Source of the DNA: Verrucomicrobiota bacterium
Lineage (GTDB): Bacteria > Verrucomicrobiota > Verrucomicrobiia > Opitutales > Puniceicoccaceae
Length of the DNA: 33,484 nt
Assembly (NCBI GenBank): GCA_038744685.1
Contig: JBCDMB010000031.1
Coordinates: forward strand, 1-33,484
Reading direction: 5' to 3'
The notes under the pieces are model-generated. The model saw only the letters and a program-made list of their open reading frames with translations, was not told where the DNA came from and did no database searches. Of the stretch, positions 24,819 to 33,196 are shown in pieces (positions within the stretch are counted from its first letter, which is position 1; every line of letters begins with the position of its first letter). Both the position numbers and the translations under genes were made by a program.

Positions 24819-24852
24819 TTGACAAAAACAGACAGACTTGTCTGTTTTTGTC
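24819..24852 (+). promoter_or_regulatory. TetR operator overlapping a TTGACA promoter
   Basis: Perfect inverted repeat with 14-bp arms (GACAAAAACAGACA at 24821-24834; TGTCTGTTTTTGTC at 24839-24852) and a 4-bp centre GACT. The core AGACAGACTTGTCT resembles known operators of TetR-family repressors. A perfect -35 hexamer TTGACA (24819-24824) is embedded in the left arm. The operator ends 3 bp before the ATG at 24856, so a transcript from this promoter would be nearly leaderless. Repressor binding would block RNA polymerase directly, which implies autoregulation of the whole downstream unit. Confidence 0.85.
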
Positions 24853-24855
24853 TTC

Positions 24856-25461
24856 ATGAAGAAAATCCGCGACAAAATCCTCGAAACCGCAGGAGACCTG
24901 TTTCAGCGCCGTGGCTACACTTGCGTTGGAATCAACGAAATAATCGAGACCTCCGGCGTTTCGAAGGCAGGCTTCTACGACAATTTCGCCAGCAAAGAAA
25001 TTCTCTGCGTAGAATGGTTACAAACGACTCACAAGCGATCCGAGCAGCATCATGCCAACATACTTGCGGAAACGGGTTCCTCAGCACAGAAGGTAGTTGA
25101 CTACTTTCACGCCCTCGCTGACTTCATGGCCTGTCGTGAATACCGTGGGTGCCCATTCAGCAACACGGCTTCCGTAATCGATGCAAAAAGCCCACGCATT
25201 CACGCAGAAATCGAGAGTCACAAGATTTTTATCCGCGAGTTTTTCGTCGATCTGGCAACTGAGATCGTTCCTGAAGGTAATTTTGAAGAGCTCGGCAATC
25301 ATTTGTTTCTCCTTTACTCGGGTGCGGCAACCGAGGCGCAGAATCTACGGTCAGAATGGCCCATCTCGACCGCTGCCCGTATTGCAAAGGCCTTAACGGA
25401 GCACGCCCAACGTCCCAGTGCGGATGAGCAACGAAGGAAAGAGGAGCTTCTTGCTGTCTGA
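24856..25461 (+). CDS. TetR/AcrR family transcriptional regulator
   Basis: A 201-residue repressor. The N-terminal helix-turn-helix domain (about 1-55) has the typical ILETAGDLF..RGY, GINEIIETSGVSKAGFYDNFASKE pattern (shown here in parts). The C-terminal ligand domain follows, with RGCPFSNTASV at about 97-107, a stretch common to LmrA/AcuR-like members. Four cysteines (C23, C51, C93, C99) could in principle bind a trivalent arsenical; this is speculation. The ATG at 24856 was preferred to an in-frame TTG at 24838 because the TTG lies inside the operator. Gene start and operator are adjacent, so autoregulation is likely. First of seven genes on this strand. Arsenic operons normally use ArsR, so a TetR regulator here is unusual. 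Confidence 0.9.
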   Translation: MKKIRDKILETAGDLFQRRGYTCVGINEIIETSGVSKAGFYDNFASKEILCVEWLQTTHKRSEQHHANILAETGSSAQKVVDYFHALADFMACREYRGCPFSNTASVIDAKSPRIHAEIESHKIFIREFFVDLATEIVPEGNFEELGNHLFLLYSGAATEAQNLRSEWPISTAARIAKALTEHAQRPSADEQRRKEELLAV

Positions 25462-25511
25462 ATCTGTTGAATTCAATCAGGCGTGGAATCAGCTACCTAC
25501 CCAATGAGTTC

Positions 25512-26252
25512 ATGACCAGACTTTTCTCACTTCTTCTTTTCAAGACTGTCGTTGCCGGTCCTCTTCTGGCTTCGACGGAAGCGTCACCGGACTACAGCGT
25601 CTATGCAGAGCTCTTGGACCGCTACGTGACGCCCGATGGAGTCCTCTACGACCAGTGGTTCTCGAACCCGAACGACCTGGCCGACCTCGACGATGTGCTC
25701 GCAGAGTTTGCCCAGGTTGACTACACTCAACTGGAGCCAAACGAAGCGACCGCTTTTCTCATCAATCTCTACAACGCTGCCATGATTGCCGCCGTCTTCG
25801 ATCACTACCCGCTAGACTCCGTGAGATCTATTGGGCTCCTTCCGTTTTCCATTTTTCGTCGCGACTTCATCGAGCTCAACGGAGAGAAAGTCAGCCTTGA
25901 TGAAGTCGAAAAAGGAATCCTTCTCGAGGAATTCGGAGATCCTCGGATCCATTTTGCGGTCAACTGCGCCAGCGAGAGCTGCCCCGCGCTTCGAGGAGAG
26001 CCCTTTACCGGTGACGCGCTGGACGCCCAGATGGATGAGCAAACAAGACTCTTCGCAAATGGACCTCATGCCGCAAAGGTGTCGTTGGAGGAAGAGTCCA
26101 CTGCTTACTCTGAACTCTTCAAGTGGTATGACGCCGACTTTCCCGGCGACGACCCTGCTACCTATCTGAACCAATACCGCGACGATCCTCTTCCAGAGGG
26201 ATTCTCAGTGGAATGGATTCCCTACGACTGGGCCCTCAACTCGACAAGCTAG
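25512..26252 (+). CDS. Exported DUF547 protein
   Basis: A 246-residue protein with a signal peptide (MTRLFSLLLFKTVVAGPLLAS, about 1-21 including the cleavage zone). DUF547 hallmarks are FLINLYNAA (82-90), FDHYPL, H147-FAVNC152-ASESC157-PALR and the C-terminal F.VEWIPYDWALN. The biochemical role of DUF547 is unknown; conserved Asn, His and Cys residues suggest an enzyme. Such genes are seen next to the TIGR04282 glycosyltransferase and ArsS genes in several bacterial groups, so it probably belongs to the arsenosugar pathway or to handling of its product outside the cytoplasm. A TTG start at 25467 is possible but would place extra residues before the signal. It lies 50 bp after tetR and 29 bp before arsS. 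Confidence 0.85.
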   Translation: MTRLFSLLLFKTVVAGPLLASTEASPDYSVYAELLDRYVTPDGVLYDQWFSNPNDLADLDDVLAEFAQVDYTQLEPNEATAFLINLYNAAMIAAVFDHYPLDSVRSIGLLPFSIFRRDFIELNGEKVSLDEVEKGILLEEFGDPRIHFAVNCASESCPALRGEPFTGDALDAQMDEQTRLFANGPHAAKVSLEEESTAYSELFKWYDADFPGDDPATYLNQYRDDPLPEGFSVEWIPYDWALNSTS

Positions 26253-26281
26253 CAGAAGAACAAAGCCGCTTCCTTTTACTG

Positions 26282-27292
26282 ATGATCAACCGACCCGACG
26301 GAGTCCCTCCCGAAAGTAATTCCTTCGATATTGCTCTTGCTCGTAGTGGTCAGGTCCTTCGTCGATCAAAACCGGAGATCCTCCAACTCAATCTCGGTAA
26401 ACTCTGCAACCTTACCTGCATTCACTGCCATGTAAGTGCCGGGCCTCGCCGAAAAGAGATTATCTCCTCGGAGACAGTCGACCAGATTCTTGCTTGGTAT
26501 ACCAAACATCCACTACCAGTTATAGATTTGACGGGTGGCGCTCCGGAGATGGCTCCGGAATTTCGTCGCATCGTGCGTCACATCCGGAAGGTAAACCCAT
26601 CTGCCCGCATCCTTGATCGATGCAACCTTGTGATCGTCAACGAGCCCGGTTTCGAGTGGGTTGGAACCTTTCTCGAGGCGGAAGAGCTCGAGATCGTAGC
26701 TTCCATGCCGTGCTACTCTCACGAGAACGTCGACGCGCAACGAGGGAACGGTGTCTTTGATCGAAGCATAGCCGCACTGCAGGAATTGAATCAACGCGGT
26801 TTCGGAACCGGTCATTCGCGGAAACGACTCGATCTAGTCTTCAACCCGAATGGAGCAAAACTACCGCCCTCTCAACAAGAACTGGAGGTAGACTACAAAA
26901 GGGAGCTCAAGAAACACTTCGACATTACCTTCGACAGCTTGATCACCATAACCAATCTTCCGATCGCCCGTTTCGCCCGTTGGCTCCGAAGGGAAGGTCA
27001 CTACGAGGACTACATGAAAACTCTTGTGGACGCCTTCAACCCCTCGACGGTGAACCGCCTGATGTGCCGCAACACCATCAGCGTAGGTTGGCGGGGAGAA
27101 ATCTACGACTGTGACTTCAATCAGATGTTGGACATGCGCCTCGCAGATCGCTCAGGGAATGGACTTTTCCTCTGGGATATTGATCCGACTTCTCTTGAGG
27201 GACGGACGATCGCAACTGGCGATCACTGTTTTGGATGCACGGCAGGCAGCGGATCTTCGTGTGGAGGGTCGCTAGTCGAGGATAAAAGCTAA
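26282..27292 (+). CDS. arsS: Arsenosugar biosynthesis radical SAM protein ArsS
   Basis: A 336-residue radical-SAM enzyme thought to transfer the 5'-deoxyadenosyl group of SAM to dimethylarsenic, the committed arsenosugar step. The 4Fe-4S motif C42-x3-C46-x2-C49 (LCNLTCIHC), the SAM-binding LTGGAPE and the C-terminal cysteine-rich signature (IYDCDFNQ; HCFGC, then a GSGSSCGGSL tail) match ArsS with its DUF3641-type C-terminus. The ATG at 26282 was chosen because the conserved LQLNLGKLCN block then starts at residue 34, as in homologues. An earlier ATG at 26213 would overlap the DUF547 gene by 40 bp. It lies 18 bp before arsM. Confidence 0.93.
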   Translation: MINRPDGVPPESNSFDIALARSGQVLRRSKPEILQLNLGKLCNLTCIHCHVSAGPRRKEIISSETVDQILAWYTKHPLPVIDLTGGAPEMAPEFRRIVRHIRKVNPSARILDRCNLVIVNEPGFEWVGTFLEAEELEIVASMPCYSHENVDAQRGNGVFDRSIAALQELNQRGFGTGHSRKRLDLVFNPNGAKLPPSQQELEVDYKRELKKHFDITFDSLITITNLPIARFARWLRREGHYEDYMKTLVDAFNPSTVNRLMCRNTISVGWRGEIYDCDFNQMLDMRLADRSGNGLFLWDIDPTSLEGRTIATGDHCFGCTAGSGSSCGGSLVEDKS

Positions 27293-27310
27293 CCCGAAAA
27301 TTGATTTTCT

Positions 27311-28357
27311 ATGACAACCGAGACACTAGACTACCACAACAACACCCAAGACTATTACGGGCGTGTTCTTCAAACCAACAAGGACCTCAAGACTTCGGCC
27401 TGTTGTGAGAATGCCTCACCTCCGGCATGGCTGAAACCTCTTTTTCAAAACCTCGATGGCGAAATCATTGAACGCAGCTATGGATGTGGCTCTCCGATTC
27501 CAACTGCGCTGGAAGGTCAAACCGTGCTCGACCTCGGATGTGGAACCGGCCGCGACGTTTTTCTTGCCTCTCAGCTTGTCGGACAAAATGGGAAAGTGAT
27601 TGGAGTCGATTTCACAGACGAACAGCTGGAGGTCGCCCGCCGCCATCGTGATAGCCAAATGGAACGTTTTGGGTTCAAAACTCCCAACGTTGAGTTCTTG
27701 CAAGGGCCTCTCGAGGATCTCCACGCACTCCGCATAGCCGATGAATCCATTGACGTCGTGATCTCGAATTGCGTGCTCAATCTCTGCCGTGACAAAGCCG
27801 ACGTCATCTCGGAAGTATTTCGCGTTTTGAAACCCGGAGGAGAACTCTACTTTTCCGACGTCTTCGCTTCGAGGCGCCTCCCGATCCACCTCGCCAACGA
27901 TCCCGATTTTCACGGGGAATGCCTCGGCGGCGCTTGGTATTGGGAAGATTTTCGCCGCCTCCTCCTCAAAGAAGGCTGCCCGGATTATCGTGTCGTCTCT
28001 CAATCAAAAATTAACCTCGAAGATCCGCGGATGGCTGCCCTCTCCGATGGCATTACCTTCGAGTCCGCTACGGTCCGCTGTTTCAAAATCGCCAGCCTCG
28101 AAGATCGCTGTGAAGACTATGGACAAGTCGTCACCTACAAAGGAACGATCCCCCAACACCCCAGAGTTTTCCCTCTGGATCCAGGGCATCTTTTCGAAAA
28201 AGGGCGACCGGAGCGGGTATGCGGCAACTCGGCTGCCATGATCGAAGAGACCCGCTTCGCGCGACATTTCTCCACGACTGGAGACCGCTCCCACCACTTC
28301 GGCCTCTTCCCCGGGTGTGAACCGGCTGCAACAGAAGAAGGATCCGGCTGCTGCTAG
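27311..28357 (+). CDS. arsM: Arsenite S-adenosylmethionine methyltransferase ArsM
   Basis: A 348-residue methyltransferase turning As(III) into mono- and dimethylarsenicals. The Rossmann SAM site VLDLGCGTGRD (72-82) and the arsenic-binding cysteines are present: C59 (SYGCGSP), C154 (SNCVLNLC) and C204 (GECLGG), equivalent to C72, C174 and C224 of the well-studied algal ArsM. An additional Cys pair C31-C32 (ACCEN) fits the fourth conserved cysteine region. The C-terminus carries a further Cys-containing extension ending GSGCC, reminiscent of metalloid-binding tails. All catalytic residues are present, so it should be functional. It is in tight order after arsS, and supplies the dimethylarsenic substrate that ArsS uses. 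Confidence 0.95.
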   Translation: MTTETLDYHNNTQDYYGRVLQTNKDLKTSACCENASPPAWLKPLFQNLDGEIIERSYGCGSPIPTALEGQTVLDLGCGTGRDVFLASQLVGQNGKVIGVDFTDEQLEVARRHRDSQMERFGFKTPNVEFLQGPLEDLHALRIADESIDVVISNCVLNLCRDKADVISEVFRVLKPGGELYFSDVFASRRLPIHLANDPDFHGECLGGAWYWEDFRRLLLKEGCPDYRVVSQSKINLEDPRMAALSDGITFESATVRCFKIASLEDRCEDYGQVVTYKGTIPQHPRVFPLDPGHLFEKGRPERVCGNSAAMIEETRFARHFSTTGDRSHHFGLFPGCEPAATEEGSGCC

Positions 28358-28394
28358 GTCTCCAAAACCCCAAGACGTCCGATTCCAGAGATTC

Positions 28395-30731
28395 GTGAAT
28401 CCAATATCCAAATACACCAGATGGCTCCACTCCAAGTGGCCGGCCGGCACAATCGAAAAACTACCCCTGGCAGGCGAAGATGGTGAAACGAACATTTCCG
28501 GTATTCGGGTTTCTGGTGATCTTACTGGTATTCCCCTCCTCAAATTCAGTGCCGACACTGGAGCGCGTGCGGTGCGGGCATTCCTCAAAGATTCCGGATT
28601 CAAGCCCACGCGGGACTCTTCGGACGAGACACTTGATCTGGCCATAATCGGAGGTGGAGTGTCGGGTATAGCTGCTGCCCGGGAGGCGAGGGAAAACGGG
28701 CTTCACTTTACCGTATTCGAAGCCCAGGAAACATTCTCGACCATCCGCAATTTCCCAAAAGGAAAACCGATTTTCACCTATCCCACCGACATGGAGCCGA
28801 CAGGTGGGATGCACTTTCGGTCGGAAGTAAAGGAAGCATTGGTTGACGAACTGGTCGAACAGCAGGACGAAGCGGGAATCGTCCCCGTCATTGCGCGGAT
28901 CGAATCAATCAAGAAAAAGGGAGACATCTTTCTGCTGAATCGCCCGGAGGCAGACCCCTTGAAGGCAAGAGCCGTTCTAATTGCGATTGGCCGTAGCGGT
29001 AATCACAGAAAAATGAATGTTCCGGGAGAGGAGAAAGACAAGGTCTTCAACCGCCTTCATGATCCCAAGGAATACTGCGAGCAGGAGGTCCTGATTGTTG
29101 GAGGGGGAGACAGCGCGGTTGAGGCGGCGATAGCCCTCACCGTATGTGGATCAAACGTCACCCTCAGTTATCGGAAGGAATCTCTCACGCGTCCCAAACC
29201 TGAAAACTTGGAGAAGATCTATGCCCTCGTGGCAAATCCGGACGCCGACGTTGGTGTGGACGAGCCAGGATCGGAGCGAGTGACCACTTCGGCCGCACGA
29301 TGGATGCGGGGAGCGAACCCCGCTGGAAAGCTAACCCTTAGACTCAACACAGAACCCACCGAGATCCGCGATGATTCTGTCGTTTTGAAAGACCGTGCCA
29401 GTGGAGACGAGGAAGCAGTCGCGAACGACGTCGTATTTTCGATGATCGGAAGAGAGCCGCCTCTCGACTTCTTTCGCCGCTCAGGGCTGAAAGTGTTTGG
29501 GGACCGGGGAGTTAAGTTCTGGCTCGGCCTGGTAGGTGTCCTCGCCTTCATGGCGTTTTTGTATCACCTCAAGGCCTACAAAACCTTTTTAGGGTTGGAC
29601 AACACGAACCTTTGGCAAATTTTCTCCTCGAAAAATTGGTTTCCGTTCAACATTCCGAAGTTGGGTCAGGAAGGTGGGGCACTCCACACGATCTTGCATG
29701 CCGCCTCGACGGATCCTGGCTTCCTCTTTGCCTTCACCTACACCGCCATCATAGTCATTTTCGGAGTCCGGCGGATCCGTCGGCGAAAAACTCCTTACGT
29801 CACCTGGCAAACCCTGACTCTTATGGCGATTCAGGTCGTCCCGCTCTTCCTCCTACCCTACGTCCTGTTCCCCATCCTCTACCAGCAAGGCGTTTTCACG
29901 AGCGGAGGAGTTGGCGAGTGGTTTGGAATGACCTTCCTTTCCGACGGCCAGGGTGGAGAACCGAACCAGTTCTGGCGCGCCTTCGGATTCATCCTCGCTT
30001 GGCCTCTATTCATTTACAACATCTTCACGGAGGCCCCGATTTGGGGCTGGATCATCCTCGGCTTCATTCAGACTTTTGTCATCATTCCGCTGATTATCCG
30101 CCGCTGGGGGAAAGGAGCTTATTGCGGTTGGATTTGTTCCTGCGGTGCGATGGCAGAAACCCTTGGTGACAAGCACCGCCATAAAATGCCCCACGGGCCG
30201 AAGTGGAACAAAGTCAACATGGTAGGCCAGGTGATTCTGGCGATCGCATTTCTCCTGCTCATTCTGAGGATTATTGGGTGGGCGACGCCTTGGGACGGAT
30301 TCGATAAGGCAGTCACTGGATTCATCGATAAAAACGAGCTGTTGAGTTACAAGGTTCTCGTTGATCTCTGGCTAGCGGGCGCGATCGGATATGGTCTGTA
30401 TTTTCACTTCTCTGGCAGAGTTTGGTGTCGATTCGCTTGCCCGCTGGCAGCACTCATGCACATCTACGCCCGCTTCAGTAAATTCCGCATCTTTGCAGAG
30501 AAGAAAAAGTGCATCTCCTGCAACGTTTGCACGTCGGTTTGCCACCAAGGAATTGACATCATGAATTTCGCGAACAAGGGCATCCCTATGGAAGATCCTG
30601 AATGTGTTCGCTGTTCCGCCTGCGTCCAGTCCTGTCCGACCGGAGTTCTCACCTTCGGCCACTATGATAAGGAAATGAAACCCGTTTACGACCTCCTCTC
30701 TGCGAGCCCGGTGCGCATGCGGGAGGATTGA
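28395..30731 (+). CDS. Flavoprotein / membrane polyferredoxin fusion
   Basis: A 778-residue protein (GTG start; a GTG at 28317 would overlap arsM). N-terminal half: GDLTGIP (41-47, an FAD GD-type motif), then G86-x-G-x2-G91 (FAD/NAD Rossmann), a second Rossmann motif IVGGGDSA (G236-G238) and SMIGREPP (349-356), together like a thioredoxin-reductase-type flavoprotein with the GD element placed first. Membrane half: about seven spans (near 375-392, 441-458, 473-496, 526-544, 550-568, 610-629, 655-672), CGWICSC (C577, C581, C583) and CRFACP (C678, C682) of the NapH/NosR/CcoG kind, then two 4Fe-4S motifs (C706-x2-C709-x2-C712-x3-C716; C737-x2-C740-x2-C743-x3-C747). Likely moves electrons between NAD(P)H, the quinone pool and an arsenosugar-pathway redox step, for example ArsS or As(V) reduction; this is inference. 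Position in the arsenosugar unit is firm. Confidence 0.85.
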   Translation: MNPISKYTRWLHSKWPAGTIEKLPLAGEDGETNISGIRVSGDLTGIPLLKFSADTGARAVRAFLKDSGFKPTRDSSDETLDLAIIGGGVSGIAAAREARENGLHFTVFEAQETFSTIRNFPKGKPIFTYPTDMEPTGGMHFRSEVKEALVDELVEQQDEAGIVPVIARIESIKKKGDIFLLNRPEADPLKARAVLIAIGRSGNHRKMNVPGEEKDKVFNRLHDPKEYCEQEVLIVGGGDSAVEAAIALTVCGSNVTLSYRKESLTRPKPENLEKIYALVANPDADVGVDEPGSERVTTSAARWMRGANPAGKLTLRLNTEPTEIRDDSVVLKDRASGDEEAVANDVVFSMIGREPPLDFFRRSGLKVFGDRGVKFWLGLVGVLAFMAFLYHLKAYKTFLGLDNTNLWQIFSSKNWFPFNIPKLGQEGGALHTILHAASTDPGFLFAFTYTAIIVIFGVRRIRRRKTPYVTWQTLTLMAIQVVPLFLLPYVLFPILYQQGVFTSGGVGEWFGMTFLSDGQGGEPNQFWRAFGFILAWPLFIYNIFTEAPIWGWIILGFIQTFVIIPLIIRRWGKGAYCGWICSCGAMAETLGDKHRHKMPHGPKWNKVNMVGQVILAIAFLLLILRIIGWATPWDGFDKAVTGFIDKNELLSYKVLVDLWLAGAIGYGLYFHFSGRVWCRFACPLAALMHIYARFSKFRIFAEKKKCISCNVCTSVCHQGIDIMNFANKGIPMEDPECVRCSACVQSCPTGVLTFGHYDKEMKPVYDLLSASPVRMRED

Positions 30732-30766
30732 TCAGAGAGAAAGACGCTCATATAGAATCACTTCCA

Positions 30767-31537
30767 ATGATTGCATTTATCGTAGGTTCAGGCTTCTACG
30801 AATTGGAGGGATTCTCACCGGTCGAGACGGTCACGCGGTTTGGGAATGTGAGATACCTGACGGGGAAAATCGCAGAAAACCCGGTTTTATTGCTCCCTCG
30901 CCACGGAAGCGGCCATACCTACCTACCCCATCAAATCAATCACCGCGCAAACCTTCTCGCTCTCAAGGAAGCAGGAGCTGAAAGGGTGGTTTCGTGTTCG
31001 GTCTGTGGAGTGATCAACCCAGATTGGTCACTCGGTGCCCCCCTGGTCGCGAAAGAACTTTTCTTCCCCGAAAACCGGCTCGGCGATGGCACGACATGCA
31101 CAGTTTTTCAGGAACCAGCTGAGCCCGGTAGAGGTCATCTCCTTGCGGGATCTTTTTTTCATTCATCCCTCTCCTCGCAAATCGAAAGTCATTTCAAAAA
31201 GTCGCACTCCAATTGCCATATCGGGTCCTATGCCCACGCGAATGGTCCGCGCTTCAACTCAAAAGCGGAGATCAAAGCTCTACGGGTTGCCGGAGCCGAC
31301 TTCCTCTCGCAAACCTGTGGTCCCGAGGCCGTCCTAGCAAATGAACTCGAGTTACCTTATGCCCTCGCCGGATTCTCGGTGGACTATGCAAACGGCGTCC
31401 AATTGGATCCCACCCCAGTCGAGACTCTTCAGGCGAACCTGAAGCGAGCGAAAGATGCGTTTGTAGACTTGATTCAGACTCTCTCCTCTCAGCCACAGGA
31501 CTACACTTTCGAAAACTTTGTCTACCGCTTCGACTAG
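30767..31537 (+). CDS. MTAP/PNP family nucleoside phosphorylase
   Basis: A 256-residue phosphorylase of the PNP_UDP_1 superfamily. Motifs: GSGFYEL (7-13), the phosphate site RHGSGH (45-50), PHQINHRAN (54-62), NGPRF.SKAEI (159-169), and VDYANG (205-210). D206 in the last motif is the position where Asp favours 6-aminopurines (adenine) and Asn favours 6-oxopurines, so an adenosine-type substrate is likely. The usual Met of MTAP in the M-T-x2-PE loop is replaced: here SQTCGPEA (181-188), with Gln in its place. That Met packs against the ribose/5'-substituent, so a different 5'-group, such as a dimethylarsinoyl, is conceivable. ATG at 30767 was chosen; a TTG at 30728 is also open. It overlaps the glycosyltransferase frame by 20 bp. 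Confidence 0.85.
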   Translation: MIAFIVGSGFYELEGFSPVETVTRFGNVRYLTGKIAENPVLLLPRHGSGHTYLPHQINHRANLLALKEAGAERVVSCSVCGVINPDWSLGAPLVAKELFFPENRLGDGTTCTVFQEPAEPGRGHLLAGSFFHSSLSSQIESHFKKSHSNCHIGSYAHANGPRFNSKAEIKALRVAGADFLSQTCGPEAVLANELELPYALAGFSVDYANGVQLDPTPVETLQANLKRAKDAFVDLIQTLSSQPQDYTFENFVYRFD

Positions 31538-32144
31538 AACCCAGCGTCCGTCCATCCTCGCCTTTCTCAAGGCGCCAGTTGCCGGAACCGTCAAAACCAG
31601 ACTGGCCAAGGAGATCGGGAACGAGAAAGCCCTCGAAGCCTACCGGTGGCTCGTGGAGCGCCAGCTGTCCGACCTTCCCAGGGATTGGAACCTCGAGATT
31701 CACTATGCACCGTCCAATTCCCTTCAGCTTATGCGGGAATGGTTGGGCTCCGAACGTTTCTACATCCCCCAGTGCGAAGGTGATTTAGGCAAACGACTTG
31801 TCCATGGGATTGCAGATTGTTTCAAAAGAGGAGCCAACACAGTCCACTGCATCGGAGGAGACTGTCCCACCCTTGGTCCGACTGAATTCTGCTTGGCAGA
31901 GCGTCATCTCACCGAGGGAACTGACCTCGTTTACGGTCCAGCTTTCGACGGAGGCTATTACCTGATCTCCCTGCGAAAACCGGCACACGAGGTTTTCGAA
32001 GGAATTCCCTGGAGCAGTGAGCAAACCCTCACCGAGTCTCTCAAAAAAGCGGAACAGCATTCGTATTCTTTTCGCTTACTCCCTGCTCACTCAGACGTCG
32101 ACGAGCTGACCGACTGGCAAAAACTCCGAGTAGATCCAATCTAG
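31518..32144 (+). CDS. TIGR04282 family arsenosugar biosynthesis glycosyltransferase
   Basis: A 208-residue GT-A-like nucleotidyl/glycosyltransferase. KAPVAGTVKTRLAKEIG matches the family's PxPGxVKTRL start, CEGDLGKRL, the metal/nucleotide GGDCPTL, GPAFDGGYYLI and IPWSSEQTL are all family-typical, and the tail ends D-V-D-E (SDVDELTDW). The TTG start overlaps the nucleoside phosphorylase by 20 bp (31518-31537), giving coupling. It is the last gene of the cluster. NCBI names the family for arsenosugar biosynthesis; its exact donor and acceptor are not known to me. Confidence 0.9.
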   Translation: MSTASTRTQRPSILAFLKAPVAGTVKTRLAKEIGNEKALEAYRWLVERQLSDLPRDWNLEIHYAPSNSLQLMREWLGSERFYIPQCEGDLGKRLVHGIADCFKRGANTVHCIGGDCPTLGPTEFCLAERHLTEGTDLVYGPAFDGGYYLISLRKPAHEVFEGIPWSSEQTLTESLKKAEQHSYSFRLLPAHSDVDELTDWQKLRVDPI

Positions 32145-32221: not shown

Positions 32222-33196
32222 CTACCCTTCTTGGGCCTCTACCAATCGGAACGGGTGCAACTGTGATCCAATCCCATCCTGAAGGCGAAAATACAGATCA
32301 CGCCCGGAAACATTCGCTTTCAGAATCCTGTCTTGTCCTTCTTCACCACCCGGCATTCGAAAGAGCTTCCCATCTTCCAAAGGTATCTGAGCGAACTGAG
32401 CCGATTCGAAATAGGGGTGAAGTTCCTCGAGCTGGTTCTTCTCGTATTCCTCCCAGCTTTTCAGGGTTTCTCCGCGATCCGTCTTGATCCGACTGAGCTC
32501 ACTACGGAACCTTTCCATGGACTCCTCCATATCCCGCCAGGCGCCAATATAATCCTCCAATCGCTTCAAGTAGGTAAAGTTTGCCTCCCGGGTCAGGTTT
32601 GAAGCTTTGACCATTTTGCGCGTTCTATCCATCCACTTCCTATGGGTCAGCTCCAGAAGCCCAATTCTAGACGAGATGGACTTGATATCCAGATTGCCAA
32701 CGGCAAACCGGACCTCGCGAATCAGACCAGAAGTCGTGCTACTCTTGATTCGCTTGGAGTGGGTCTTGCCGTAGTAAGTCGGGAAAATGATGATTGTCTG
32801 TCTCGGGCAATAAAAGGATCCATAACGGTAGAACTTCCGCTTCTTGGAATATCCCTCTTTGGTCACTACATCCGGTGTTTTCGTTTTGAGCCACTTCACT
32901 TCGGACTCAAACCGATCCGCGACCAACTCTTCAATGTCGAGGCTTTCGACATTGAAGAGATTCACTAAAATCCCTTCACCCTCATCGAGCATACTTTCAA
33001 CCTCTGGTTTCAAGTCACCAACAAGAAGAACTGGTGGCTCTTGCAGGAATCGATCCCAACTGCCTGTCGAAAGAGAAAATTCCAATTCCTCGCTCGAACT
33101 TTCCTTCCCGGATAACACCTGATCCGCGGCACTCTCTCCAACAAAAAGGGTGATCGAGCAACCTAGCCACAAAATACTGCGGAACACATCTGGCAT
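32222..33196 (-). CDS. Exported hypothetical protein with coiled coil
   Basis: A 324-residue protein with a signal peptide (about 1-24, MPDVFRSILWLG..., cleavage near SAAD-Q). Residues about 185-265 are rich in Glu/Lys/Arg with regular heptad-like Leu/Met spacing and probably form a coiled coil. A short basic stretch KTHSKRIKSSTT precedes it. There is no catalytic or binding motif I recognise, and no neighbour on its strand. It is convergent with the arsenosugar unit (77 bp away). Confidence 0.7.
   Translation of the reverse strand: MPDVFRSILWLGCSITLFVGESAADQVLSGKESSSEELEFSLSTGSWDRFLQEPPVLLVGDLKPEVESMLDEGEGILVNLFNVESLDIEELVADRFESEVKWLKTKTPDVVTKEGYSKKRKFYRYGSFYCPRQTIIIFPTYYGKTHSKRIKSSTTSGLIREVRFAVGNLDIKSISSRIGLLELTHRKWMDRTRKMVKASNLTREANFTYLKRLEDYIGAWRDMEESMERFRSELSRIKTDRGETLKSWEEYEKNQLEELHPYFESAQFAQIPLEDGKLFRMPGGEEGQDRILKANVSGRDLYFRLQDGIGSQLHPFRLVEAQEG

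Follow-up and report, generated by a model that had tools for sequence, protein, structure and literature searches.

Genes and features of the operon

The window, a stretch of 33,484 nucleotides from a Verrucomicrobiota bacterium, holds seven genes on the same strand, which encode, in this order, a TetR-family regulator, a DUF547 protein, ArsS, ArsM, a flavoprotein/polyferredoxin fusion, an MTAP-like phosphorylase and a TIGR04282 protein (Table 1). With the likely start codons, neighboring genes are separated by 5 to 37 bp or overlap, the start of the TIGR04282 gene lying within the end of the phosphorylase gene. The likely starts of the fusion (GTG 28395) and the phosphorylase (ATG 30767) were picked by aligning relatives, and their frames are open from GTG 28317 and TTG 30728, respectively; the likely tetR start is ATG 24856, with an open frame reaching back to TTG 24838. 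The frames and profile matches bear out the sequence-only reading that preceded this analysis, which had described seven genes pointing in one direction with short gaps or overlaps. Because a genome of the same genus (G131, locus L046) has the identical seven genes in the identical order, the arrangement is not a product of chance.

Table 1. Features of the operon, with coordinates in the window
Feature	Coordinates	Strand	Basis
Inverted repeat, putative TetR operator	24821..24852		Perfect 14-bp arms, 4-bp spacer
TetR-family regulator	24856..25461	+	TetR_N match
DUF547 protein	25467..26252	+	DUF547 match
ArsS radical SAM enzyme	26213..27292	+	TIGR04167, CxxxCxxC motif
ArsM-type arsenite methyltransferase	27311..28357	+	PRK11873 / NF038099 profile scores, both below cut-off
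Membrane fusion, flavoprotein half and NapH-like [4Fe-4S] polyferredoxin half	28395..30731	+	Profile matches
MTAP-like phosphorylase, clade A	30767..31537	+	PNP_UDP_1; SQTCGPEA and DYANGV motifs
TIGR04282 protein, probable nucleotidyltransferase	31518..32144	+	TIGR04282 profile; model fold

The inverted repeat, a likely operator for the TetR protein (TetR_N, 39.5 bits), stops 3 bp short of the tetR ATG, and L046 retains its core ACAGACNNGTCTGT. Gene spacing and the repeat suggest a single transcript under TetR, which would repress the operon through the repeat until released by an inducer. Scans for promoters (2 found, shuffled mean 3.4) and terminators (12 found against 9.0) stayed at the level of shuffled sequence. 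Among the 97 arsS loci compared, a relative of this TetR was seen in the same genus only.

ArsS is identified by family membership (TIGR04167, 423.8 bits, above the curated cut-off of 300), with both the CxxxCxxC motif and the C-terminal cysteine motif present and conserved in the alignment, and an arsenic-adenosine product is predicted. The ArsM-type protein scores 184.3 bits with PRK11873, below the cut-off of 263, and 120.5 bits with the profile for arsenosugar-type ArsM (AsSugarArsM, NF038099), which has a cut-off of 400. The DUF547 protein (84 bits) is a recurring neighbor of arsS, and by eye its N-terminus looks like an export signal. Its best sequence match in the PDB (E 0.0039, to repeat proteins) was taken as chance, and its predicted fold matched nothing at E < 1e-3.

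Proposed pathway and its redox partners

The distribution of the genes was followed in 288 genomes of the phylum Verrucomicrobiota, which are non-independent samples and were counted with thresholds set after the first results had been seen; 18 carry arsS. The clade-A phosphorylase, the fusion and TIGR04282 all track arsS in this survey, often unlinked to it, which answers affirmatively the question raised earlier of whether the genes co-occur elsewhere. A second comparison covered 99 arsS loci, collected as sets of 17 and 80 (L056 was left out as the same stretch as L034) and including Burkholderia and Pseudanabaena plasmid loci added once their annotation was known. The 40 control stretches comprised up to 20 kb from the start of each of 39 contigs from arsS genomes, plus one inner stretch, some being only 1 to 5 kb long. 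Since the profiles for this count were built from arsS neighborhoods, and recurrence there was the reason for including the VTT, reductase and PHO4 families, its p values are too good. A simple gene caller recovered arsS in just 83 of 98 sequences, and the counts therefore rest on profile or tblastn matches.

Gene content and co-occurrence in other genomes support the earlier designation as an arsenosugar operon, and we favor, with moderate confidence, a TetR-controlled operon with the following steps, where we infer all functions other than those of ArsS and ArsM. As established for their families, ArsM would methylate arsenite to a dimethylarsenical, and ArsS would link this to the 5'-deoxyadenosyl group of SAM. 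The phosphorylase would use phosphate to cleave the resulting arsenic analogue of methylthioadenosine into adenine and arsenoribose-1-phosphate, which the TIGR04282 protein would convert with an NTP to NDP-arsenoribose. TIGR04283, an inverting GT2-type protein, would be the transferase of the pathway, forming the beta-riboside by attaching arsenoribose to its acceptor, which is probably a lipid or glycerol. In the fusion, electrons would pass from NAD(P)H via FAD to the [4Fe-4S] clusters, which would in turn reduce the ArsS radical SAM cluster, pentavalent arsenic intermediates, or both. The genome has a TIGR04283 gene scoring above cut-off, away from the operon at G000:C1:228540-229199 and beside DUF547 and DUF3047 genes; because of this location, the operon probably does not encode the whole route on one transcript, contrary to what had been suggested.

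A second radical SAM family, rSAM-B (members in L147, L239, L242, L246 and L252), scores far under the ArsS cut-off and is a candidate replacement for ArsS, judged from its gene context. It occurs in 14 of the 288 genomes, none with arsS and 11 with TIGR04282, and arsM is close by in 10 of the 14 loci. These ArsS-free clusters contain arsM, TIGR04282/TIGR04283 and often DUF547 and a reductase; a clade-A phosphorylase accompanies rSAM-B once, as does a diverged redox fusion (L252), and L147 has its polyferredoxin module as a NapH-like gene with an FNR-type reductase gene. The radical motif is at residues 40-47 in the L242 protein and at residues 194-201 in BgArsL (PMC8552651), which makes an ArsL-type identity unlikely. 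We tentatively propose two radical SAM entries to arsenosugars, where rSAM-B would replace ArsS and form an arsenic-carbon bond to the adenosyl or another group of SAM, and a phosphorylase and a nucleotidyltransferase, not a glycosyltransferase, would then yield NDP-arsenoribose. If true, NDP-arsenoribose would be a new kind of activated sugar. The operon and its relatives also suggest that the rSAM-B family is worth examining for arsenic-carbon bond formation.

The fusion combines a half resembling YpdA and thioredoxin reductase (TIGR04018, 122) with a NapH-like polyferredoxin half (TIGR02163, 63.7), both scores being below cut-off. Its flavin half has no CxxC motif, and the GGGPCG segment of Bdr aligns to GGGVSG, with serine in place of the active-site cysteine of Bdr; the active-site cysteines expected of Bdr/YpdA or thioredoxin reductase are absent. 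For this reason, electron transfer is a better fit than disulfide reduction. Ten of the 288 genomes carry the fusion, seven together with arsS (p 1e-7); within the 37 genomes that have TIGR04282, the tie between fusion and arsS is not significant (p 0.11). Profile matches near arsS (5 of 99 loci, 0 of 40 controls) are likewise not significant, and one of the five (L109) is merely a thioredoxin-reductase-like frame. Two single-contig genomes, G091 and G268, have the fusion without arsS or rSAM-B, among genes with no visible arsenic link, which rules out a protein exclusive to arsenic. These two genomes would also suit a general membrane electron carrier that is in the operon by happenstance and does not serve ArsS, a reading compatible with the main explanation. 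We find it somewhat doubtful, as TIGR04282 is present in all ten fusion genomes, and the fusion sits in the cluster here, in L046 and L035, and in diverged form in L252. Flavoprotein reductases occur in 20 of the 99 arsS loci and in the Pseudanabaena arsS cluster, so a redox protein as such is no novelty in arsenosugar clusters. Of what had been claimed for this gene, the role in redox supply is supported, and its novelty is overstated, only this particular fusion being unusual.

The TIGR04282 protein and the phosphorylase

The last gene product scores 163.5 bits with TIGR04282, above the curated cut-off of 134, and its model has a pLDDT of 95.9. After 3cgx, the nearest structures are 7p97, a 3-phosphoglycerate guanylyltransferase (Z 20.8), 2i5e, a probable nucleotidyltransferase (Z 19.2), and Rv2983 (Z 17.3), followed by IspD, TarI and GlmU. 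Apart from 3cgx, all of the 50 VIA-align matches listed are nucleotidyltransferases, counting Rv2983 and human ISPD. The fold by itself does not establish function in this family. The protein is probably a nucleotidyltransferase that would activate arsenoribose-1-phosphate, and the family name, arsenosugar glycosyltransferase in NCBIfam, is perhaps wrong. The sequence-only reading had followed that name and assigned a glycosyltransferase acting on arsenoribose, whereas the model resembles nucleotidyltransferases. It is unlikely that the protein is itself a glycosyltransferase, working on arsenoribose-1-phosphate from the phosphorylase or on free arsenoribose: the GT-A fold is common to true glycosyltransferases, and WrtF (ranks 22 and 32) is the only one named among the 50 Foldseek matches listed, the putative label of 3cgx aside, but the VIA-align matches speak otherwise, as does a CofC match of the L147 member (42 bits, below the cut-off of 105). 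Moreover, a separate transferase is at hand, since the GT2-type TIGR04283 is found near arsS about as often (43 of 99 loci) as TIGR04282 (42 of 99) and the two are often fused into one frame. TIGR04282 is present in 37 of the 288 genomes, comprising 18 of 18 with arsS and 19 of 270 without (p 1e-18).

The phosphorylase matches PNP_UDP_1 (PF01048; 90.1 bits, gathering cut-off 25.1), and its closest solved relative is MTAP, although the MTAP profile score (TIGR01694, 132.8 bits) is below the curated cut-off of 274.85. It belongs to clade A, a long, fully supported branch separate from ordinary MTAPs, with altered motifs: the DYDCW of adenosine-type MTAP at the purine site is DYANG, and a methionine is replaced by glutamine, so the substrate could differ from that of MTAP. 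Clade A is found in eight of the 288 genomes, seven with arsS (Fisher p 8e-9) and the eighth with rSAM-B in its place; all eight have TIGR04282, which the phosphorylase gene adjoins in six. In three of these six pairs, arsS is on a different contig or about 280 kb distant. The clade is lineage-restricted: it was found in none of 79 further arsS genomes (E <= 1e-40), of which 28 have weaker matches at the level of ordinary MTAP (best E 3.1e-36), in G194 alone among 197 genomes of that genome's class, and 17 plasmid records gave distant matches, none of the 15 listed exceeding 31.7% identity. Most ArsS bacteria therefore use other means, or ordinary enzymes, at this step. MTAP-like genes near arsS (9 of 99 loci, 1 of 40 controls) are not significant alone (p 0.16), and MTAP-type phosphorylases with ordinary motifs are present in some proteobacterial arsS loci. 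Because of these loci and its tracking of arsS, the phosphorylase is the best candidate for stripping adenine off the ArsS product, which makes the earlier assignment of this step a likely one.

Ordinary MTAPs act on methylthioadenosine (MTA) and 5'-deoxyadenosine, and membership in that family would fit an enzyme outside the arsenosugar line that salvages these by-products of SAM enzymes. No second MTAP-like phosphorylase was seen in the genome, the two other PF01048 proteins being nucleosidase-like and below the named cut-offs. We nevertheless consider this quite improbable, given the separate branch with its changed motifs and the restriction of clade A to eight genomes, all with TIGR04282 and either ArsS or rSAM-B; so narrow a distribution fits housekeeping salvage poorly. 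Detoxification without arsenosugars, where arsenolysis by the phosphorylase would aid arsenate reduction, ArsM would methylate and the fusion would reduce arsenicals, suits the redox protein and ArsM and finds a parallel in the handling of PNP as a candidate gene for human arsenic metabolism (PMC1257606), but is very improbable since it leaves ArsS, TIGR04282 and the phosphorylase-TIGR04282 pairing unexplained.

Comparison with known systems

In the portions of the literature available, the steps after ArsS are covered by proposals, such as a postulated 'adenosyl nucleosidase' (PMC10456119), with no identified enzyme. The arsenosugar operon proposed here and its relatives nominate a specific phosphorylase, an activating enzyme and an electron donor, all of them open to testing with a small set of purified proteins.

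For the individual proteins, the likeness to MTAP (TIGR01694) lies in the family, the RHG motif and the first Asp of the purine-site motif, whereas the phosphorylase has SQTCGPEA for GMTxxPEA, an added FPENRL segment, DYANG for DYDCW and a score below cut-off. The TIGR04282 protein shares its fold with the CofC/FbiD-type guanylyltransferases 7p97 and Rv2983 (Z 20.8 and 17.3), at 14 to 17% identity, and its substrate is expected to differ. The flavoprotein half of the fusion resembles Bdr/YpdA (bacillithiol disulfide reductase), but differs by the serine at the active-site position and by the fused polyferredoxin.

Cyanobacterial arsenosugar systems, represented by ArsM and ArsS of Synechocystis (PMC8552651) and a plasmid arsS cluster of Pseudanabaena galeata, share arsM and arsS with the operon. 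The P. galeata cluster also has a pyridine-nucleotide-disulphide reductase, but the annotation of its 19-kb stretch has no phosphorylase, TIGR04282 or polyferredoxin, and it has two VTT-type genes and an ArsR-type gene about 8 kb away. The plasmid cluster of Burkholderia glumae shares arsS, TIGR04282, an MTAP-family phosphorylase, DUF547 and redox genes, with TIGR04282, TIGR04283 and MTAP consecutive on the opposite strand about 6 kb from arsS. Unlike the operon, it carries genes on both strands, has ordinary MTAP motifs and TIGR04283 within the cluster, and encodes CcdA/thioredoxin and an FAD-dependent oxidoreductase where the operon has the fusion.

Operon layout and its recurrence in the phylum

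The seven genes share one strand of a contig (C31) within a 3.6-Mb genome. The arsS and TIGR04282 frames each overlap the preceding gene, and the remaining intergenic gaps span 5 to 37 bp with alignment-favoured starts, which bears out the earlier sequence-only reading of one orientation with short gaps or overlaps. With high confidence, we regard the genes as an operon whose members belong to an arsenosugar pathway. The core of the inverted repeat upstream of tetR, ACAGACNNGTCTGT, is also found directly upstream of tetR in the same-genus genome, and control of the seven-gene unit by TetR is quite likely. Promoter and terminator scans of the window gave no excess over shuffles. Taken as a whole, a TetR-controlled arsenosugar operon with the chain proposed below is a reading that we hold to be somewhat probable.

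Features discussed, with coordinates or gene order (window positions unless a genome, G, contig, C, or fetched locus, L, is named; G000 is the window's own genome)
Feature	Location	Strand	Remark
Seven-gene operon	24856-32144	+	gene calls and family searches
Perfect 14-bp inverted repeat	24821-24852		ends 3 bp upstream of tetR ATG
Another perfect 14-bp inverted repeat	32927-32959		5-bp spacer; within the ORF below
ORF	32222-33196	opposite	no Pfam or NCBIfam match
TIGR04283, transferase candidate	G000:C1:228540-229199		over cut-off
DUF3047-TIGR04283-DUF547	L195:8150-10454 (G000:C1)		arsenosugar-like module, unlinked to window operon
TIGR04282 gene with in-frame stops	G220:C1:1328390-1328950		genome without arsS
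Fatty acid hydroxylase family	L252:6403-7230		
arsS-VTT-DUF547-phosphorylase-TIGR04282	L041		
arsS-(unassigned ORF)-DUF547-(small ORF)-fusion-GT2-GT87/GT2-arsM	L035		
arsM, fused TIGR04282/TIGR04283, arsS, DUF547	L045		
VTT-DUF547-phosphorylase-TIGR04282	L144, L146		arsS distant or on other contig
VTT-phosphorylase-TIGR04282	L143		arsS distant or on other contig
DUF547-phosphorylase	L145		arsS distant or on other contig
DUF547-fusion	L148, L149		arsS distant or on other contig

Co-occurrence elsewhere had been set beforehand as a test. The identical order, from tetR to TIGR04282, was found in G131 (locus L046), the sole other genome labelled as the same genus in the 288-genome sample, and parts of it recur in more distantly related genomes, at the loci of the table. 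Because these pieces persist as separate modules in relatives, the window operon can be described as their union.

Across the 288 genomes, arsS (over cut-off) was found in 18, the specialised phosphorylase group that includes the window's enzyme (clade A; E <= 1e-40) in 8, the fusion (E <= 1e-200) in 10, TIGR04282 (E <= 1e-40) in 37, and a second radical SAM family (E <= 1e-45) in 14. With p values that ignore kinship and multiple looks, and thresholds picked after the first scores, arsS is present in 7/8 phosphorylase genomes (p 8e-9; 1.6e-6 without the window's genus) and 7/10 fusion genomes (p 1e-7; 1.4e-5 likewise), and TIGR04282 in 18/18 arsS genomes vs 19/270 others (p 1e-18); within the 37 TIGR04282 genomes, arsS carriers and non-carriers differ for the phosphorylase (7/18 vs 1/19, p 0.017) and not significantly for the fusion (7/18 vs 3/19, p 0.11). 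All phosphorylase and all fusion genomes carry TIGR04282. Three fusion genomes lack arsS: G206, which carries the second radical SAM family, and G091 and G268, in which neither was found. The interrupted TIGR04282 gene of G220 is probably a decaying remnant.

The phosphorylase and the sugar chain

By sequence comparison, methylthioadenosine phosphorylases (MTAPs) are the nearest solved relatives of the window phosphorylase. SQTCGPEA and DYANGV, plus an FPxNRL segment, are invariant in the eight clade-A members; in 11 aligned rows from the 34 other sequences of the set, the first motif is GMT or GMS, and the second is D[YWF]D[CS]W in six and N..AAG in four, the latter sharing its Ala with clade A. 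In the tree, the clade is a single group with 100/100 support, and its branch measures 4.1 changes per column; the program warns that long branches, including L147, make placement uncertain. Some proteobacterial arsS loci contain MTAPs whose motifs are of the ordinary kind: L112 and L130, which form one supported pair, and L185 (B. glumae), L119 and L121, which form another group; those of L119 and L121 lie on the opposite strand, the latter about 8 kb off. In the ArsS product, dimethylarsenic takes the place of the methylthio group of methylthioadenosine, and because of this resemblance recurrent MTAP-type use fits the chemistry. Clade A was found in none of 79 further arsS genomes, and is therefore one lineage's solution. 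The proposal that the phosphorylase acts on the ArsS product gains from its MTAP-type relatives and from arsS in most clade-A genomes, and we predict this activity as reasonably probable. A radical SAM enzyme is described as adenosylating arsenic in PMC12159101, and PMC10456119 reports a postulated "nucleosidase" for the arsenosugar route.

The TIGR04282 gene lies immediately 3' of the phosphorylase gene in 6/8 clade-A loci, and overlaps it in the window, L041 and L144. A structure model built from 37 sequences (pLDDT 95.9, pTM 0.91) has as its top match, among the best 50 of 1000 Foldseek matches, 3cgx, a "putative nucleotide-diphospho-sugar transferase", followed by 3-phosphoglycerate guanylyltransferase 7p97 (Z 20.8), with 2i5e, Rv2983, IspD, TarI and GlmU further down. 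Among the invariant residues are the K and R of a KTR close to the N-terminus, GxD, DGG, and a DxD close to the C-terminus. The earlier assignment as a glycosyltransferase fits less well with these chiefly nucleotidyltransferase matches, and the model makes nucleotidyltransferase activity likely. The simplest chain would then lead from nucleoside to sugar-1-phosphate, NDP-sugar and glycoside. Phosphorolysis yields an alpha-1-phosphate and GT2 enzymes invert, so that the product would be a beta-riboside; natural arsenosugars are beta-ribosides. No paper joining arsenosugars with a nucleotidyltransferase or with methylthioadenosine phosphorylase was found, an earlier proposal beyond the literature searched being possible, and the accessible portions of PMC8787705, PMC13077682 and PMC11009773 hold nothing on the steps at issue.

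The operon probably falls short of a whole route on one transcript, because the TIGR04283 transferase candidate is encoded elsewhere in the genome, flanked by DUF3047 and a second DUF547 gene. The DUF3047 family adjoins arsS in other loci as well. Another match to TIGR04283 in this genome scores 131.7 bits and forms the tail of a longer C4 frame, which resembles the GT87/GT2 protein of L035. TIGR04282 and TIGR04283 are fused in one frame of ~420-520 aa in L045, L048, L087, L239, L240, L242-L246 and L249, which supports consecutive steps. In L035, L148, L196 and L252, a cellulose-synthase-like GT2 adjoins a long protein with a TIGR04283-like domain at its end; Pfam assigns the long protein of L035 to GT87, and those of the other three resemble it. 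In L035 and L148 this pair adjoins the redox fusion.

A second radical SAM family

In G194 (locus L147), the clade-A phosphorylase gene overlaps that of a radical SAM protein other than ArsS (59.9 bits to TIGR04167, cut-off 300; best model Rv1681, 105.9, cut-off 380), with arsM, TIGR04282, an FNR-type reductase and a NapH-like protein as neighbours and a diverging TIGR04283-like gene at 174.8 bits, just under the cut-off of 182. Among the 19 TIGR04282 genomes without arsS (18 fetched loci and L147, with one G189 locus also fetched), relatives occur in L239, L242, L246 and L252, and the five sequences served as family query. With the same limits on p values, the family is found in none of the 18 arsS genomes and with TIGR04282 in 11 of its 14 (p 1e-8), and none of the 37 TIGR04282 genomes has both this family and arsS (p 9e-5). 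One or the other is present in 29/37 TIGR04282 genomes vs 3/251 others, and neither in 8/37. An arsM gene shares the stretch in 10/14 loci; in the four others, the radical SAM gene is near a contig end in L265 and L266, and not in L269 and L270. Aligned as profiles, the family and ArsS match with 98.4% probability across 261 columns, and their C-terminal cysteines coincide, but a common core is expected for any pair of radical SAM families. No NCBIfam model scores above cut-off, and Pfam yields generic domains only. We consider the family a candidate replacement for ArsS. In L252, a diverged redox-fusion copy (335 bits to the fusion profile) adjoins TIGR04282 in the same cluster.

The redox fusion and known arsS systems

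The flavin half of the fusion resembles Bdr/YpdA and thioredoxin reductases, and the other half combines cysteine motifs of the NapH type with two [4Fe-4S] ferredoxin motifs. On a plain reading of the sequence, the protein would take electrons from NAD(P)H and pass them on to iron-sulphur clusters; that it donates them to a radical SAM enzyme is a tentative suggestion, ArsS or an arsenical being possible acceptors.

Within 8 kb of arsS, 99 loci (17 from the phylum sample, 79 of 80 further loci, the window and two plasmids) were compared with 40 control stretches from arsS genomes, giving arsM 35 vs 2, TIGR04282 42 vs 1, TIGR04283 43 vs 3, VTT 22 vs 0, a CoA-disulfide-reductase-like flavoprotein 20 vs 1 (p 0.005), DUF547 13 vs 1 (p 0.049), PHO4 transporter 8 vs 0 (p 0.06), MTAP-like 9 vs 1 (p 0.16) and the fusion profile 5 vs 0 (p 0.18), with p values flattered because the profiles derive from such loci. 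The L109 match is partial and thioredoxin-reductase-like only, so true fusions number 4/99. Members of a fatty acid hydroxylase family are repeatedly encoded close to arsS or TIGR04282 (L094, L102, L069, L252 and others), which may hint at an arsenolipid as end product.

SsArsS and SsArsM are described in the accessible part of PMC8552651. Compared with Bdr, which has GGGPCG, the fusion has GGGVSG at the aligned place, and its flavin half has no CxxC. The view that the redox protein is foreign to arsenosugar systems applies to the polyferredoxin fusion and not to flavoprotein reductases as such: by the neighbourhood counts, in arsS clusters such a reductase is frequent, a phosphorylase occasional and the fusion rare.
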